DNA of 5,762 nucleotides from a bacterium (GTDB taxonomy: Bacteria > Krumholzibacteriota > Krumholzibacteriia > LZORAL124-64-63): assembly GCA_018652925.1 (NCBI GenBank), contig JABIBH010000236.1:1-5762 (forward strand), read 5' to 3'. The notes beneath the pieces were generated by a model. The model ran no database searches, was not told the DNA's origin, and saw only the letters and a program-made list of their open reading frames with translations. Both the position numbers and the translations under genes were made by a program. The first letter of the stretch is position 1; every line of letters begins with the position of its first letter. This document shows, one piece after another, positions 1 through 5,762 of this stretch.

Positions 1-1
1 C

Positions 2-841
2 ACCTGGGGTGTGAAGCGTGGAATTTTTTCCAATGAAGCTGGCCAGGGTTCAGCACCGATTGCTCATGCAGCAGCGAAAACTGACGAACCTGTGCGCGAA
101 GGTGCTGTAGCTATGCTCGGGCCAATGATTGACACACTTATAATCTGTACTATCACCGGTCTGGTCATTCTTACCACAGGTGTCTGGACTGAAAAGCATT
201 ATGACTCTCTGCCAATCAATTCACAATCCTCACTGACTTTCATCACAGCCGGTGCATCGGTTGCAACCAATGGTCGCATTATTGAAAGCGATCGGTTTAC
301 TGGTACTGTCAACGTTGACAACGGAGAACCTGAAGACGTTTTGATTGTCCGTAACCACAGCACAGTAATCAGCCCTGTTATTACTGCTGACGACAATAAT
401 TGGATTGGAGTACTTGAAATCATTGAAGGTAAAATTGTTTCTGAAGACATACCCGACCTTACTCTGCACGGCAATATGTCTCTCAACGGTTCTCCATTGA
501 CTGCGGCAGCTTTCACAAGGGGACTTGGGAAATATGGCTATCTGATTATTACTGTCGGTGTTTTTCTGTTTGGTATTTCAACTGCTATCAGCTGGAGTTA
601 CTACGGAGACAGAGCGATGGTTTACCTGTTCGGTACTGAATCAATTCTCCCATACAAAATCATCTTTTGCATAACGCATTTCCTTGGTGCAATATTCTCA
701 CTTGAAATTGTCTGGAACTTTGGCGACTCTGCTCTAGGATTGATGGCGTTACCAAACTTGCTGGCGTTGATTCTGCTTGCAAAGAAAACACGCAACATGA
801 CCGACGAGTACTTTGCTCGAGAACATAAACCACTGAGGTAA
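2..841 (+). CDS. Sodium:alanine symporter family (AGCS) protein, C-terminal part, with an internal insertion
   Basis: This is the 3' part of an inner-membrane amino-acid/cation symporter of the AGCS (alanine or glycine:cation symporter) family; the start lies left of the window, and the reading frame is open from base 2. The visible protein begins in the family hallmark segment GIFSNEAGQGSAPIAHAAA, followed by the AMLGPMIDTLIICTITGLVIL membrane segment (split here as AMLGPMIDTL then IICTITGLVIL). Downstream are SPLTAAAFTRGL, a membrane segment around GYLIITVGVFLFGIST, the SWSYYGDRAMVYLFGT motif, and a final helix containing GLMALPNLLALILL. These are all standard family landmarks in the right order. 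Odd feature: between the GVW after the first helix and SPLTAAAF there are about 100 extra hydrophilic residues (bases about 188-481), where typical members have only a short loop. The gene ends in TAA, 6 nt before the methyltransferase ATG. The family call is secure; the transported amino acid is not determined. Confidence 0.93.
   Translation, partial: TWGVKRGIFSNEAGQGSAPIAHAAAKTDEPVREGAVAMLGPMIDTLIICTITGLVILTTGVWTEKHYDSLPINSQSSLTFITAGASVATNGRIIESDRFTGTVNVDNGEPEDVLIVRNHSTVISPVITADDNNWIGVLEIIEGKIVSEDIPDLTLHGNMSLNGSPLTAAAFTRGLGKYGYLIITVGVFLFGISTAISWSYYGDRAMVYLFGTESILPYKIIFCITHFLGAIFSLEIVWNFGDSALGLMALPNLLALILLAKKTRNMTDEYFAREHKPLR
188..481 (+). other. Extra ~100-residue hydrophilic domain inserted in the AGCS symporter
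   Basis: This in-frame coding segment lies between two conserved membrane segments of the symporter. It lacks a hydrophobic stretch long enough to span a membrane. It is rich in Asp, Asn, Thr, Ser and Val, with alternating patterns such as TGTVNVDNG, DVLIVRNHSTVI and WIGVLEIIEGKIV that suggest a small beta-rich extramembrane domain. Base composition and frame are continuous with the flanks, so this is not an inserted element or a frameshift. Its role and the side of the membrane it faces are unknown. The boundaries are estimated by comparison with remembered family members and could be off by about 10 residues. Confidence 0.65.
835..838 (+). promoter_or_regulatory. Shine-Dalgarno for the methyltransferase
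   Basis: GAGG lies in the last codons of the symporter gene, 9 nt before the ATG at 848. It supports this start and suggests translation coupled to the end of the upstream gene. Confidence 0.6.
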
Positions 842-847
842 GAAACA

Positions 848-1642
848 ATGAACTACCTGACAGCAGGTCGTGCCGATAAGCATAAACTATATGAGACTTC
901 AGTCCAAAGTGCTGATACAGAAGTCGAATTCATGGATCGTGTTTTTGTTGAACGATTTGGTCGCACTCCCCAATACCTGCGCGAAGACTTTTGCGGCACT
1001 GCATTAATGTGCAAGGAGTGGGTCGAAAAACGTGAAAGCAATCACGCGATTGGTATCGATCTTGATGAGTCAACCTTGCAGTGGGGGAAAGAAAATAACC
1101 TCAACCCTATTGGGGCTGCTGCACAAAGAGTTTCTTTAATTTGTGATAACGTTTTGAACGTTACCGACCCATCGACTGAAATCATAGCCGCAACCAACTT
1201 CTCCTGGTGGGGGTTTCATGACCGCAAGGTATTGAAACAGTACTTTATGAGCAGCTTGAATTCCCTTGTAGATCAAGGAATGTTGATGCTGGACATCTTT
1301 GGTGGGCCTGAAGCTCAAGTCGTTCAATTTGAAGAACGTGAGTATGACGGATTCACTTATATCTGGGATCAGGACAAGTTCAACCCAATCACTCATTCCT
1401 ATAAATGTAACATCCATTTCCGTTTTCCTGACGATAGCAAGATGGAAAATGCCTTTCAGTACGACTGGAGAATTTGGACAATTCCTGAAACTCGTGATTT
1501 ATTACTTGAATCCGGGTTCAAGGAAGTAGTAATTTATTGGGAAGGGACTGATCAGGACGGAAACCCGAACGGAAATTTTCAACCATGCGGAGCTGGCGAT
1601 CTTGCTCCAGCTTGGGTTGCATATATAGTAGCTTTCAAATGA
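848..1642 (+). CDS. Class I SAM-dependent methyltransferase
   Basis: This cytoplasmic 264-residue protein has a Rossmann-type methyltransferase core. Visible motifs in order: YLREDFCGTA (about residues 43-52), a variant of the glycine-rich SAM-binding motif I; AIGIDLDES (67-75), with the acidic residue at the end of strand 2 that would contact the ribose; SLICDNVLNV (96-105), motif II/III; TNFSWWGFHDR (116-126), in the motif IV region; and GMLMLDIFGG (144-153). A C-terminal substrate-recognition region includes YDWRIWTIPETRDLLLESGF, where the TRDLLLESGF helix is typical of the strand 6-7 hairpin region in this fold. The LREDFCGTA signature belongs to a widespread but functionally uncharacterised methyltransferase group, so the substrate is unknown. 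The start is supported by GAGG 9 nt upstream. The gene lies 6 nt after the symporter and about 22 nt before the acidic protein, so all three are probably cotranscribed. Confidence 0.88.
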   Translation: MNYLTAGRADKHKLYETSVQSADTEVEFMDRVFVERFGRTPQYLREDFCGTALMCKEWVEKRESNHAIGIDLDESTLQWGKENNLNPIGAAAQRVSLICDNVLNVTDPSTEIIAATNFSWWGFHDRKVLKQYFMSSLNSLVDQGMLMLDIFGGPEAQVVQFEEREYDGFTYIWDQDKFNPITHSYKCNIHFRFPDDSKMENAFQYDWRIWTIPETRDLLLESGFKEVVIYWEGTDQDGNPNGNFQPCGAGDLAPAWVAYIVAFK

Positions 1643-1652
1643 GTGATGTGAT

Positions 1653-1657
1653 GGAGG
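1653..1657 (+). promoter_or_regulatory. Shine-Dalgarno that fixes the start of the acidic protein
   Basis: GGAGG stands 7 nt before the ATG at 1665. An in-frame TTG at 1659 is only 1 nt from this site, too close to be the start, so ATG 1665 is chosen. Confidence 0.75.
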
Positions 1658-1664
1658 ATTGTTA

Positions 1665-1919
1665 ATGGACAACCAGGCTTGTGTTCATTGTGAAAAATAT
1701 ATCGATGAAGATGCTGAATTCATCAAATATAAAAAAATGAAATTCTGCTCAAAGGATTGCAAAGAGGGTTGGATTGATAAACAGTCTGACGATGCAATAG
1801 TTGATCCTGATGATATTGATTTTGGTCTTGACGAACCAGTTGACCATGATGATCCCAATATTGACGACCTTGATGGTCTGGATGATATAGATGATCTGGA
1901 AAATCTTGACGATTTCTAA
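1665..1919 (+). CDS. Small protein with Cys4 zinc-binding-like head and acidic tail
   Basis: This hypothetical 84-residue protein is probably cytoplasmic, with no signal peptide or membrane segment. The N-terminal half has four cysteines, Cys6-x2-Cys9 and Cys28-x3-Cys32, in the contexts CVHC and KFCSKDC. This resembles the small treble-clef/TRASH or MYM-type zinc fingers that use an FCSxxC motif, so zinc binding is inferred. The head is basic around residues 21-33. From residue 42 to the end, about half the residues are Asp or Glu and there is no Lys or Arg, in a loose repeat of the form DD(I/L)D or DLDGLDDIDD. The head-plus-tail design could mediate protein binding or mimic nucleic acid, but no function is assigned. 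It is the last gene of the + strand run, just before the terminator. The ATG at 1665 is preferred because GGAGG is 7 nt upstream. Confidence 0.8.
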   Translation: MDNQACVHCEKYIDEDAEFIKYKKMKFCSKDCKEGWIDKQSDDAIVDPDDIDFGLDEPVDHDDPNIDDLDGLDDIDDLENLDDF

Positions 1920-1935
1920 GCTACGCTAAACAAAA

Positions 1936-1963
1936 AAAGGAGGACACAATTGTGTCCTCCTTT
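1936..1963. terminator. Bidirectional intrinsic terminator between convergent genes
   Basis: This is a perfect 14-bp palindrome, arms AAAGGAGGACACAA (1936-1949) and TTGTGTCCTCCTTT (1950-1963), with no separate loop in DNA; the RNA would open a few central bases. On the + strand it is followed by AATTTTTT, and on the - strand by a run of T (complement of the A-run at 1932-1938). It starts 17 nt after the acidic-protein stop and lies 21 nt after the HesB-like stop, so it can end transcription of both convergent units. Confidence 0.88.
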
Positions 1964-1984
1964 AATTTTTTCCCAACCAAAAGA

Positions 1985-2335
1985 CTATCCGCAACTACCG
2001 CTGCTACTGCAACTGGTATCACTGCATCCACCAGCAGCACTAGCCAATGAAATTGTGTAGCCTTTTCGCATGCCGTCATCAATGTAGTCAAGAACCAGGC
2101 CTCCGCCTTGGACAACTTGTTGTTCTACATCTGGAGCCATGCAATATTTTCTGCCTTCAATTTCCCAAGTTTTATCATCGTCAGCAGGCTCATCCAGAGC
2201 CATTCCCACAGAGGGACCGCCTCAGCCAAACCCCTGAAAGTAAAATCGGATTGCCTGAGGGCCATCCTCAGGAAGTTCTAACCCTGCCAATGCTTCATTG
2301 GCTGAGCTGGAAACTTTAATCAAGTCTGTACTCAT
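1985..2335 (-). CDS. HesB/IscA-family protein, predicted selenoprotein (UGA = Sec38)
   Basis: Read through the TGA at 2224-2222, this is a 116-residue protein of the HesB/IscA-like iron-sulfur biogenesis superfamily. Residues 1-37 end in AIRFYFQGFG, Sec is at 38, and GGPSVGMALDEPADDD follows directly. This matches the family pattern of a strand, a conserved Cys in a Gly-rich turn, then (L/M)ALDE. Sec replaces the first conserved metal/cluster-ligand Cys. The next family Cys is Cys104, 66 residues on, close to the usual spacing of about 63-65. The end reads GGCSDTSCSSSGSCG, so Cys104, 109 and 115 replace the canonical Cys-Gly-Cys; another Cys is at 65. ATG 2335 is supported by AAGGA 8 nt upstream. 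HesB-like selenoproteins are an established bacterial/archaeal group. Ordinary calling would give only a 74-residue fragment from GTG 2209. The alternative, a nonsense mutation in a Cys form (TGC/TGT to TGA), is less likely given the downstream hairpin. Role in Fe-S handling or redox is inferred. Confidence 0.88.
2187..2201 (-). promoter_or_regulatory. Candidate bacterial SECIS hairpin
   Basis: On the - strand, GGCUC (2201-2197), loop UGGAU (2196-2192) and GAGCC (2191-2187) form a 5-bp GC-rich stem with a pentaloop. The apical loop begins 25 nt after the UGA and has G at its second position. Both agree with the general description of bacterial SECIS elements, which have a loop roughly 16-37 nt from the UGA and a G among its first two bases. 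An outer A-U pair with a bulged U could extend the stem. It lies inside the coding region, as is normal in bacteria. Confidence 0.65.
2222..2224 (-). other. In-frame UGA recoded as selenocysteine (Sec38)
   Basis: This TGA on the - strand lies between the codons for GFG and GGPSVG. The reading frame is open and family-like for 37 codons before it and 78 after it. It occupies the position of the conserved first Cys of HesB/IscA proteins, the typical place for Sec/Cys exchange. Confidence 0.87.
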
Positions 2336-2344
2336 TTTATCCAT

Positions 2345-2349
2345 CCTTT
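2345..2349 (-). promoter_or_regulatory. Shine-Dalgarno for the HesB-like selenoprotein gene
   Basis: The - strand reads AAAAGGATGGATAAAATG, placing AAGGA about 8 nt before the ATG at 2335. It shows that initiation occurs upstream of the TGA, so the full 116-residue reading is the intended one. Confidence 0.65.
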
Positions 2350-2359
2350 TTGTGTTCAA

Positions 2360-2387
2360 AAATTACCTACTGGAATAGCATAGTCAA
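2360..2387 (-). promoter_or_regulatory. Weak candidate sigma-70-type promoter for the HesB-like gene
   Basis: The - strand has TTGACT (2387-2382; 5 of 6 to the -35 consensus), a 16-nt spacer, then TAATTT (2365-2360; only 3 of 6 to the -10). The alternative pair TTGCAT with TATGCT, spaced 17 nt, overlaps it. The 101-nt gap between the pump and this gene has room for a promoter, but no strong one stands out. The gene may instead be read from the pump operon, since no good terminator follows the pump gene. Confidence 0.3.
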
Positions 2388-2391
2388 TTAG

Positions 2392-2405
2392 TTGCATAGA
2401 TGCAA
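2392..2405. repeat. Short perfect inverted repeat upstream of the HesB-like gene
   Basis: TTGCAT-AG-ATGCAA is a 6-bp perfect dyad with a 2-bp centre, 57 bp before the selenoprotein start and overlapping a possible -35 region. It could be an operator for a dimeric regulator. A dyad this short can arise by chance. Confidence 0.35.
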
Positions 2406-2436
2406 ACATTAACTACCATCCCAGATTCAAAAGAAT

Positions 2437-5400
2437 CTAGTCAATTTTTCTACCATGTCCAAACTTCCGTTTGAAATCTTCCAGAACAGTATAGCTCACT
2501 GGAACCAGAATCAGCGTAATTGCAGTTGCAAACAACACTCCAAATCCGAGACTAATAGCCATCGGAATCAGGAACTGTGCCTGCAGGCTCTTCTCCAGCA
2601 ACAGCGGACTCAAGCCGGCAAAAGTTGTCAACGATGTCAAAATAATCGGCCTGAATCGTCGAGTTCCACTCTCAATAACTGCCTGCTTCAGATTACCGTC
2701 GGTCTTCAGTTTACGATTGATAAAATCGACCATAATCAGTGAGTCATTTACCACAACCCCCGTAAGAGCAACCACTCCAAAACTACTCAGTAATGTTAGG
2801 GATTTGCCCATAATCACATGGCCAAGCACTGCTCCTAAAAACCCGAACGGAATTGCGGTCATGATTATCAGAGGTTGAGTATAAGATCTGAACAGAACTG
2901 CAAGTAATGCAAAAATCAAAATCAGGGCCATTATAAATCCGTTGCCCAGGCTCTCCATCGATTCCTTTTTGTCTCTGTCCTCTCCTTCAAACGAGAAATG
3001 AAGAGAAGGATATTCTGCCCGCAGTTTAGGAATCAGCTCATTGGTTAAAGCTGCCTGAACCTGTCCTGCGTTGGTTACTTTCTCATCGACGTCAGCAATT
3101 ACACTGACAATCCGCCTGCGATCCATTCTGCTGATCGATGCATACCCTCTGCCTCTGTCAACTATTGCCACTTTGCTGAACGGAACTTCTGCACCATCGG
3201 GTGTTCTGATCAACATTTTTTCAATATCACCAATGCTCTGTCTGTTTGATTCTGGATAACGAATCATCACACGAACATCGTCTCTGCTACGCTGGATGCG
3301 CAACGCCTCTGCGCCATAGAAACCTTGTCTGACTTGTCTGGCCAGATCACTCAAAGTTAACCCAAGAGTTCGCGCTTCAGGTTTAAGCTTAAGTTTGAGC
3401 TCAACTTTTCCCTCTTCGTAGCTATCAGTTACATCTGTAACTCCAGGGTAGGACGAAAGCTCCAGCTTTACTTTTTCCGATGCTTCTGTCAGCAAATCAA
3501 CGTTATGTGATGACATCTGTAATTCCAGCGGCGCACTGCCGTGAAACAGGTTACTTGAAAACGTAACAGATACAACTCCAGGTACAGGTCCAGTAAGCTC
3601 CCGCCACCTTCTAATCATATCACTACTGGCAGCCTCGCGATCTTCACCCTTCACCAGTTCAACATTTATTTCAGCTTTATGTGCACCTGAAAATGATTTG
3701 TCGGTTCCACCGCCAGGCATATTAACACCACCTCTTGGCTGTGTTCCGATAGTCGTAAAAGTATGCTTGAAAACTGTTTGTCCATATTTTTCAGAAAGCT
3801 CCCGATCAAGTTCATTCAGCCCACTAGTAATTTGCGTAATAGCTTTCTCAGTCTGCTGAACAGTTGTTCCTGCCGGCATGTTCACCACACAAATCATATT
3901 GTCAGCATCAATTTTTGGCATGAATACAAACTTGATATGTCCACCGGACACATAGCCAATCAATAGCAACATCGATGCAGTTGCAATAGCTGACACAATT
4001 GCTTTATGGCATAGTGACCATTGAAGTACCGGCTTGTATTTTTTCTCGATAAAATTTTCAAAACCTGTGGCAAATTTTTCCTGAAGACCCATAATACCGC
4101 TACGAGGTTTTGTTTTAGTTTTGTCTGGAACTGTTGAAAGGTGGGCTGGTAAAATCAGCAATCCCTCAACTAGTGAAACCAGTAAAACTGAAATAACAAC
4201 AATTGGAATCACACCCATGAATTTACCCATGATCCCATCAACAGCAGCCAATGGATAGAACGCAATTACTGTGGTAGTGACTGCCAGAATAACAGGAGTT
4301 GCCACCTCTTTTGTGCCTTCTATTGCAGCTTTATATCTGCCCTTACCCATCTGCCGATGTGCATAAATATTTTCACCAATCACAATTGCATCATCAACAA
4401 CCAGACCAAGGACAATAATAAATGCAAACATCGATATCATATTCAATGAACCACCAAACCATGGCAGTATCCAGAATCCACCCATAAAAGAAATCGGGAT
4501 TCCAAGAGCAACCCAAAACGCAAGTCGAGGTTGCAGGAACAGAGCGAGGCAGCCAAAAACCAGAATCAAACCGATAACTCCATTACGAGTCATCAATTCC
4601 ATACGACCGCGATAAATTACTGCTCTATCTGCCCATGCTTCCATTGTCAATCCGGCAGGAAGTGCATCACGATTAAGTTCAATATATTCATTTACTGCAC
4701 CTGTCACATCGAGCACCGATTCATCGGCAGCTCTGTAAACAGCAATCTGGGCAGCCGGTTTTCCATCGAAACTTGTCCTGCTGTCCTGATCCTTGAATCC
4801 GTCAATCACAGTGGCAATTTCGCCAAGTTTTATACTGACGCCAGTAGCAGTAGAAATAACAGTGATATCAGCAAATTCCTTGCCCGTGAATCTTTGACCT
4901 TTAGTTCTAACCAGAATTTCGCCTGCATTTGTTTTGACCGATCCGCCAGGCAAATCCATACTTCCAGCTCTTACTGCGCCGGTTACTTGTTCAAACGTCA
5001 ACCCATATTTTCTCAGAGACTCTTCACTTACCTCGATAGAAATTTCATAAGGTCTTGTCCCAACAACTTCAGCAAGACTAACCTCTGGCAGAAGCAACAA
5101 ATCATCTCTTACTTTTTCACAGGTAACCTTCAGGGATTTCTCATCAACGTCTCCATAGACAACAACATTGATTGCCTGTTCCTTGGAGACCATAATCTGA
5201 ACTACAGGTTTTTCAGTTTCCGCAGGGAACGTTATGATTCTGTCGACGGCCTGTTTGATATCGTCCAGCACTCTTTGCTGATCAACACCAAGTTCCATCT
5301 CTGCAATAACAGTTCCGCTGTTTTCAACTGCTGTGGAAGTAATTCGTTTTATGCCATCGATGCCCTGAATTGATTCTTCAACTCTGACACAAACAGCTTC

Positions 5401-5583
5401 TTCAACATCGTCTGGACTTGCACCAAGATAGGGAACCGTAATAATCACCCGATCAAGATTAATGTCAGGAAACACTTCCTGTTTAATTGATTTAAGGCTC
5501 ATCAATCCAGCTAAAATTATAAATACCATTAGCAGATTTGCAGCAACATGATTGCCGGTGAACCATTCGACAAGTCTGTTCAT
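2437..5583 (-). CDS. RND-family efflux permease (AcrB-like, HAE-type)
   Basis: This complete 1048-residue inner-membrane pump is expected to use the proton gradient to export substrates, as a trimer with the adjacent fusion protein. It shows the classic two-fold RND layout: TM1 at about residues 12-30, a large periplasmic loop, TM2-TM6 at about 335-480, TM7 at about 527-547, a second periplasmic loop, and TM8-TM12 at about 880-1030. The proton-relay pair Asp397-Asp398 sits in TM4 within GLVVDDAIVIGENIY. The TM10 segment reads TGVVVNDSLIMVDFIN, so the position of the AcrB TM10 lysine is Asn946, followed by Asp947; this variant is common in an environmental AcrB-like branch. A Gly-rich stretch (about 612-632) lies in the second porter region. 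The metal-binding features of CusA/CzcA are not evident, and the substrate is unknown. The ATG overlaps the fusion-protein TAA by one base, and a G-run lies 7 nt upstream as ribosome binding site. Family call secure. Confidence 0.96.
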   Translation of the reverse strand: MNRLVEWFTGNHVAANLLMVFIILAGLMSLKSIKQEVFPDINLDRVIITVPYLGASPDDVEEAVCVRVEESIQGIDGIKRITSTAVENSGTVIAEMELGVDQQRVLDDIKQAVDRIITFPAETEKPVVQIMVSKEQAINVVVYGDVDEKSLKVTCEKVRDDLLLLPEVSLAEVVGTRPYEISIEVSEESLRKYGLTFEQVTGAVRAGSMDLPGGSVKTNAGEILVRTKGQRFTGKEFADITVISTATGVSIKLGEIATVIDGFKDQDSRTSFDGKPAAQIAVYRAADESVLDVTGAVNEYIELNRDALPAGLTMEAWADRAVIYRGRMELMTRNGVIGLILVFGCLALFLQPRLAFWVALGIPISFMGGFWILPWFGGSLNMISMFAFIIVLGLVVDDAIVIGENIYAHRQMGKGRYKAAIEGTKEVATPVILAVTTTVIAFYPLAAVDGIMGKFMGVIPIVVISVLLVSLVEGLLILPAHLSTVPDKTKTKPRSGIMGLQEKFATGFENFIEKKYKPVLQWSLCHKAIVSAIATASMLLLIGYVSGGHIKFVFMPKIDADNMICVVNMPAGTTVQQTEKAITQITSGLNELDRELSEKYGQTVFKHTFTTIGTQPRGGVNMPGGGTDKSFSGAHKAEINVELVKGEDREAASSDMIRRWRELTGPVPGVVSVTFSSNLFHGSAPLELQMSSHNVDLLTEASEKVKLELSSYPGVTDVTDSYEEGKVELKLKLKPEARTLGLTLSDLARQVRQGFYGAEALRIQRSRDDVRVMIRYPESNRQSIGDIEKMLIRTPDGAEVPFSKVAIVDRGRGYASISRMDRRRIVSVIADVDEKVTNAGQVQAALTNELIPKLRAEYPSLHFSFEGEDRDKKESMESLGNGFIMALILIFALLAVLFRSYTQPLIIMTAIPFGFLGAVLGHVIMGKSLTLLSSFGVVALTGVVVNDSLIMVDFINRKLKTDGNLKQAVIESGTRRFRPIILTSLTTFAGLSPLLLEKSLQAQFLIPMAISLGFGVLFATAITLILVPVSYTVLEDFKRKFGHGRKID

Positions 5584-5762
5584 TATTGGTCCCCCCCTGC
5601 TACTATAATTTCAATCCCATTAGTCACAACTTCAAGGTGTGATGTTACAACCTTCTCTCCTGAAGATAATCCACGCACAATTGCTGTCTCGTCTTCCAGG
5701 TGCAGAACTTCAACCTCTCGAATAACCAGTTTTGAATCTTCAACCACCCAGCAGTTATCGTC
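5583..5762 (-). CDS. Membrane fusion protein (HlyD/AcrA type) of the RND pump, C-terminal end
   Basis: These are the last 59 codons of a gene whose start lies beyond the right edge. The frame is open from 5762 to the TAA at 5585-5583. The translation includes WVVEDSKLVIREVEVLHLED and VRGLSSGEKVVTSHLEVVTNG. This is the typical membrane-proximal C-terminal region of RND periplasmic adaptors, where a beta-domain is followed by a 'GL..GE.VV' segment. The stop codon overlaps the pump ATG (TAATG), indicating translational coupling and roughly matched amounts of adaptor and pump. The identification rests on a short fragment plus its position directly before the RND gene, which is the standard order. 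Confidence 0.87.
   Translation of the reverse strand, partial: DDNCWVVEDSKLVIREVEVLHLEDETAIVRGLSSGEKVVTSHLEVVTNGIEIIVAGGDQ
5591..5597 (-). promoter_or_regulatory. G7 run serving as ribosome binding site of the RND gene
   Basis: Seven consecutive G (preceded by A on the - strand) sit 7 nt before the pump ATG and inside the last codons of the fusion protein. It is the only purine-rich site suitable for initiation here. It is also a homopolymer that could slip. Confidence 0.5.

Follow-up and report, generated by a model that had tools for sequence, protein, structure and literature searches.

The window analysed here is a stretch of 5,762 nucleotides (contig JABIBH010000236.1, positions 1 to 5,762 of the forward strand, assembly GCA_018652925.1) from an uncultured bacterium of the phylum Krumholzibacteriota. 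On its minus strand (1985..2335) lies a gene for a 116-residue IscA/HesB-like protein, in which an in-frame TGA at codon 38 (2222..2224, minus strand) is very likely read as selenocysteine (Sec). Since 36 related genomes retain both this TGA and a hairpin behind it, the gene is very likely a genuine Sec gene. The best-supported function, which we favour with reasonable confidence, is that of an A-type carrier in which the Sec would be a ligand, and the protein would likely carry iron-sulphur (Fe-S) clusters or metal. The minus-strand frame 2335->1985 is open from ATG to TAG (1987-1985), with the TGA at 2224-2222 as its single interruption, as the initial annotation had described; this codon sits between GFG and GGPSVGMALDE. 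The same annotation had placed a ribosome binding site before the full start, and an AAGGA (2344..2348, minus strand) is indeed present 8 nt 5' of the ATG, as seen in the sequence and in the start-site listing of 38 copies. It had also expected standard annotation to yield a C-terminal fragment: gene calling with table 11 returned only 74 C-terminal residues from a GTG start at 2209, and the protein database entry is the same 74-residue fragment (P0001; 6 member sequences, 18 contigs).

We searched 80 genomes of the window's phylum with TGA read-through, 38 of which belong to its own taxonomic family. The protein was detected in 36 of the 80 genomes, corresponding to 36/38 within the family and 0/42 outside it; the read-through search did not find the gene in the family genomes G048 (89% complete) and G068 (81% complete). 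Codon 38 was TGA in all 36 copies inspected, one per genome, the G049 copy being cut by a contig end. The stop codons of these copies were TGA (24), TAG (9) and TAA (2), with one cut off, and since 24/36 copies end in TGA, this codon serves as an ordinary stop too. The two TGAs counted in G058, G059 and G067 proved to be the Sec TGA and an ordinary TGA stop. Over the 33 codons before the TGA, differences among all copy pairs at codon positions 1/2/3 were 0.278/0.232/0.471, and in the DNA 5' of the start of the same copies they were 0.73/0.72/0.71, a contrast that marks the codons before the TGA as being under coding constraint. Pooled differences per site before the TGA amounted to 0.563 for synonymous and 0.253 for nonsynonymous changes. 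One relative was found in the genome_contigs search, and no relative was confirmed among the viral contigs searched.

A hairpin resembling a selenocysteine insertion sequence (SECIS), GGCUC-UGGAU-GAGCC (2187..2201, minus strand), begins 20 nt after the UGA. It has a 5-bp stem, a 5-nt loop with G in second position, 25 nt from UGA to loop and a free energy of -7.6 kcal/mol. These values lie within the bacterial SECIS limits given in a figure legend of PMC13188914 (a stem of 4-16 bp, a loop of 3-9 nt with G among its first two positions, spacing 16-37 nt, energy at or below -7.5 kcal/mol). All five pairs form in 36/36 TGA copies, with the consensus GGCUC-UGGAY-GAGCY: 27 copies are identical, 6 carry a C in the loop and 3 a closing G-U. 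The G-U copies are those of three g2 genomes (out of four), in which Leu has replaced Pro and the pair persists. In two paralogues that carry Cys at the site, only 1/5 pairs forms, and the full five-pair stem is present in 0/2. The hairpin uses GCT for Ala, CTG for Leu and GAG for Glu without exception in 36/36 copies; in the long frames of these loci, GCT makes up on average 13% of Ala codons (range 3 to 34%). Of 72000 random synonymous recodings, 3021 retained the complete five-pair stem. As the genomes are related, the hairpin and codon counts were not converted to a probability.

The window's own assembly, 1.9 Mb in 420 contigs at 75.7% completeness, contains SelA (441 bits), SelB (367 bits) and SelD (347 bits), each over its curated cut-off. 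Its selD (L082 1877-2938, plus strand) itself has an in-frame TGA, with the product reading SGUAAK, and is thus a predicted selenoprotein. Across the phylum, tRNA-Sec exceeded the cut-off in 71/80 genomes, the same-genus G046 among them, and SelB was present in 70/80; within the family, SelB was seen in 34/38 and tRNA-Sec in 33/38. At least one of the two was found in 35 of the 36 genomes with the gene, G051 showing neither. The named entries among the 120 SelB relatives listed were mostly Krumholzibacteria, with one from Gemmatimonadales, which points to Krumholzibacteriota as the probable phylum. A second, weaker tRNA-Sec match, still over cut-off (49.5 to 58.7 bits), was observed in G013, G019, G073 and G074, which belong to other families. 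Within the window, Rfam gave no match at or above a family's gathering score. Together, the family-wide retention of the TGA with its SECIS-like hairpin and the presence of selA, selB and selD support Sec decoding, in which SelB with Sec-tRNA would read the UGA, helped by the hairpin.

The ligand positions of IscA are Cys35, Cys99 and Cys101. Profile alignment to E. coli IscA placed Sec38 at Cys35, in agreement with the earlier claim that the TGA falls at the conserved first cysteine of the family, and C104 at Cys99; the place of Cys101 is not a Cys. Cysteines 109 and 115 follow beyond C104 in a Cys-rich C-terminus (1988..2026, minus strand), and in 41 aligned sequences C104 is invariant and C109 and C115 are each at least 90% conserved. 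C104, C109 and C115 are likely further ligands. Structure prediction gave a fold shared with IscA and SufA. In the proposed mechanism, the selenolate of Sec38 would take the place of the Cys35 thiolate, and Sec38 together with C104, C109 and C115 may form the ligand or redox site of an A-type-like carrier.

The initial annotation had asked whether homologues align Cys or Sec at residue 38. Among 142 database homologues, Cys occupied the site in 50; 62 had Trp, and the remaining 30 were fragments starting after the site. The Trp entries (P0021, P0023, P0036 and others) may stem from metagenome gene calling that translated TGA by code 4. Sec and Cys copies lie adjacent in two family genomes (G039: L100 7290-7637, minus strand; G038: L110 4189-4536, plus strand), where the paralogue beside the Sec copy has TGC at the site and lacks the hairpin; the single TGA recorded in each of these second copies is its stop codon. 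The tree that we built held 55 sequences: 38 came from the loci, and Cys homologues (10) and hand-chosen Cys outgroup rows (7) made up the rest. In it the Cys forms were nested in the Sec forms at two places, with fork supports of 99/94 and 99/79, the latter just under the tree tool's mark. This topology suggests that Sec gave way to Cys at least twice, in one case along with a tandem duplication.

Several results weigh against a Sec-decoded Fe-S carrier. tRNA-Sec (selC) was not found in the 75.7% complete own assembly, so that, of the sel genes that the initial annotation had proposed to look for, selA, selB and selD are present in the genome and selC is present in same-genus G046. Three sub-threshold tRNA-Sec matches in the assembly were rejected, as they lie on tRNA-Trp, tRNA-Tyr and tRNA-Leu; a 1950-bp stretch of G046 containing tRNA-Sec had no match there either, which, without a positive control, proves little. 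The bare hairpin is at -6.9 or -5.9 kcal/mol in 9/36 relatives, above the -7.5 limit. When the UGA is folded together with 45 nt, the minimum-energy structure retains the stem in 26/36; the window's single-sequence folding z-scores, -1.3 to -1.5, are weak. G046, the closest relative, is separated from the window before the TGA by 3 synonymous and 3 nonsynonymous changes, numbers that alone are too small to demonstrate constraint. Pfam gave no match for the window protein, which also falls below the curated cut-offs of TIGR01911 (24.4 vs 66.35 bits) and NF038090 (49 vs 85 bits). Residues 100-116, including the C-terminal cysteines, were modelled with a predicted local distance difference test (pLDDT) score <50, and the ligand site is therefore not established by the model. 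No conserved Fe-S partner gene was found beside the gene among the 36 loci. Finally, according to an excerpt of PMC11097638, disrupting the HesB-like selenoprotein of M. maripaludis left nitrogen fixation unimpaired.

The alternative that survives best is that the protein is a selenoprotein but no cluster carrier, with Sec38 and the C-terminal cysteines forming, on a scaffold like that of IscA, a site for thiol-redox chemistry or metal scavenging. The spaced, Cys-rich C-terminus where CGCG would be expected fits this proposal; most uncharacterised selenoproteins are probably redox proteins, in the view of a 2026 review as excerpted (PMC13188914); and a separate PF01521 protein, present in 26/38 family genomes, could serve as the carrier. 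However, Sec38 and C104 occupy the IscA cluster-ligand positions, the fold is shared with IscA and SufA, and no PF01521 protein was found in the own genome (G000) or in G046, so the own genus shows no other candidate of this kind. We consider a redox or scavenging role possible but the less probable function.

It is very improbable that the TGA is a real stop, whether in a pseudogene, through a sequencing error, or ahead of a C-terminal product made from an internal start. The lack of tRNA-Sec in the own assembly would agree with a stop, as would the 74-residue frame opened by GTG 2209, but the TGA recurs in all 36 copies inspected, codon-like divergence precedes it, the hairpin and its invariant codons follow it, and full-length homologues have Cys at the site. 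Genome-wide reassignment of TGA, for example to Trp, is likewise very improbable. The 62 Trp homologues, which come from other sources, would speak for it; against it, 24/36 family copies of this gene and the methyltransferase gene of the window end in TGA, and the genome encodes SelA, SelB and a SelD that itself carries an in-frame TGA.

The selenocysteine reading places the gene beside systems already described. Excerpts of PMC1794560 and PMC13188914 report, respectively, 11 bacterial cases of HesB-like selenoproteins and their UxGP motif, which upholds for bacteria the earlier statement that HesB-like proteins with Sec were known. The M. maripaludis HesB-like selenoprotein was found by mutagenesis and 75Se labelling, and its function was described in 2024 as not clear (PMC11097638, excerpt). 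The motif reads UGGP in the window and UGGP or USGP in 36/36 copies. The window protein thus resembles the HesB-like selenoproteins of TIGR01911 (HesB_rel_seleno) in this motif, in being a small IscA-like protein, in its selA/selB/selD host and in its SECIS-like hairpin; it differs in scoring under that model's cut-off, as do five other Sec members. Unlike the known HesB-like selenoproteins, the present lineage was found in only one family among the 80 phylum genomes. NF038090 (IscA_HesB_Se) was the best-scoring curated model, with a common core and multiple C-terminal cysteines, although its cut-off was also missed by the five other Sec members (55 to 63 bits), compared with 148 and 141 bits for control database proteins. 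In contrast to the A-type carriers IscA, SufA and ErpA (PF01521), for whose cut-offs the window protein scores far too low, Sec replaces Cys35 and spaced cysteines replace CGCG. Excerpts of the literature on Krumholzibacteri selenoproteins, HesB-like selenoproteins and HesB/IscA selenocysteine contained no account of the present lineage.

The surroundings of the gene were compared over the 36 loci, where neighbour counts are lower bounds owing to contig ends. Just upstream, on the same strand, lies an RND efflux permease gene (ACR_tran; 2437-5583, minus strand), an order that recurs in at least 22/36 loci; a convergent methyltransferase is found downstream in at least 23/36. A small convergent protein with CxxC...FCxxxC and an Asp-rich acidic tail is encoded at 1659-1919 (plus strand), and by pattern count a similar small protein lies downstream on the opposite strand in at least 21/36 loci; the window's small protein gave a sub-threshold Pfam match to the zinc finger zf-FLZ. 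Between the convergent genes is a terminator-like 12-pair hairpin (1936..1963, both strands), T-rich on both strands (2 found vs a shuffle mean of 0.3). Assigning a function from gene order was rejected, as the recurring RND permease, methyltransferase and sodium:alanine symporter are not known Fe-S partners.

Because no PF01521 protein was seen in the own genome and G046, the selenoprotein might be the sole A-type carrier of its genus, a selenolate-ligated stand-in for IscA/ErpA. We hold this to be improbable; it is weakened by assembly gaps and by the PF01521 model missing divergent members, the window's own included. If true, Fe-S delivery, and hence growth, would depend on selenium. The gene very likely represents a new lineage of the already known HesB-like selenoproteins, conserved family-wide, beyond the reach of the curated models tested and represented in databases by truncated entries. 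In G038 and G039, the side-by-side Sec and Cys copies offer a natural pair for probing Sec at a cluster-ligand position.
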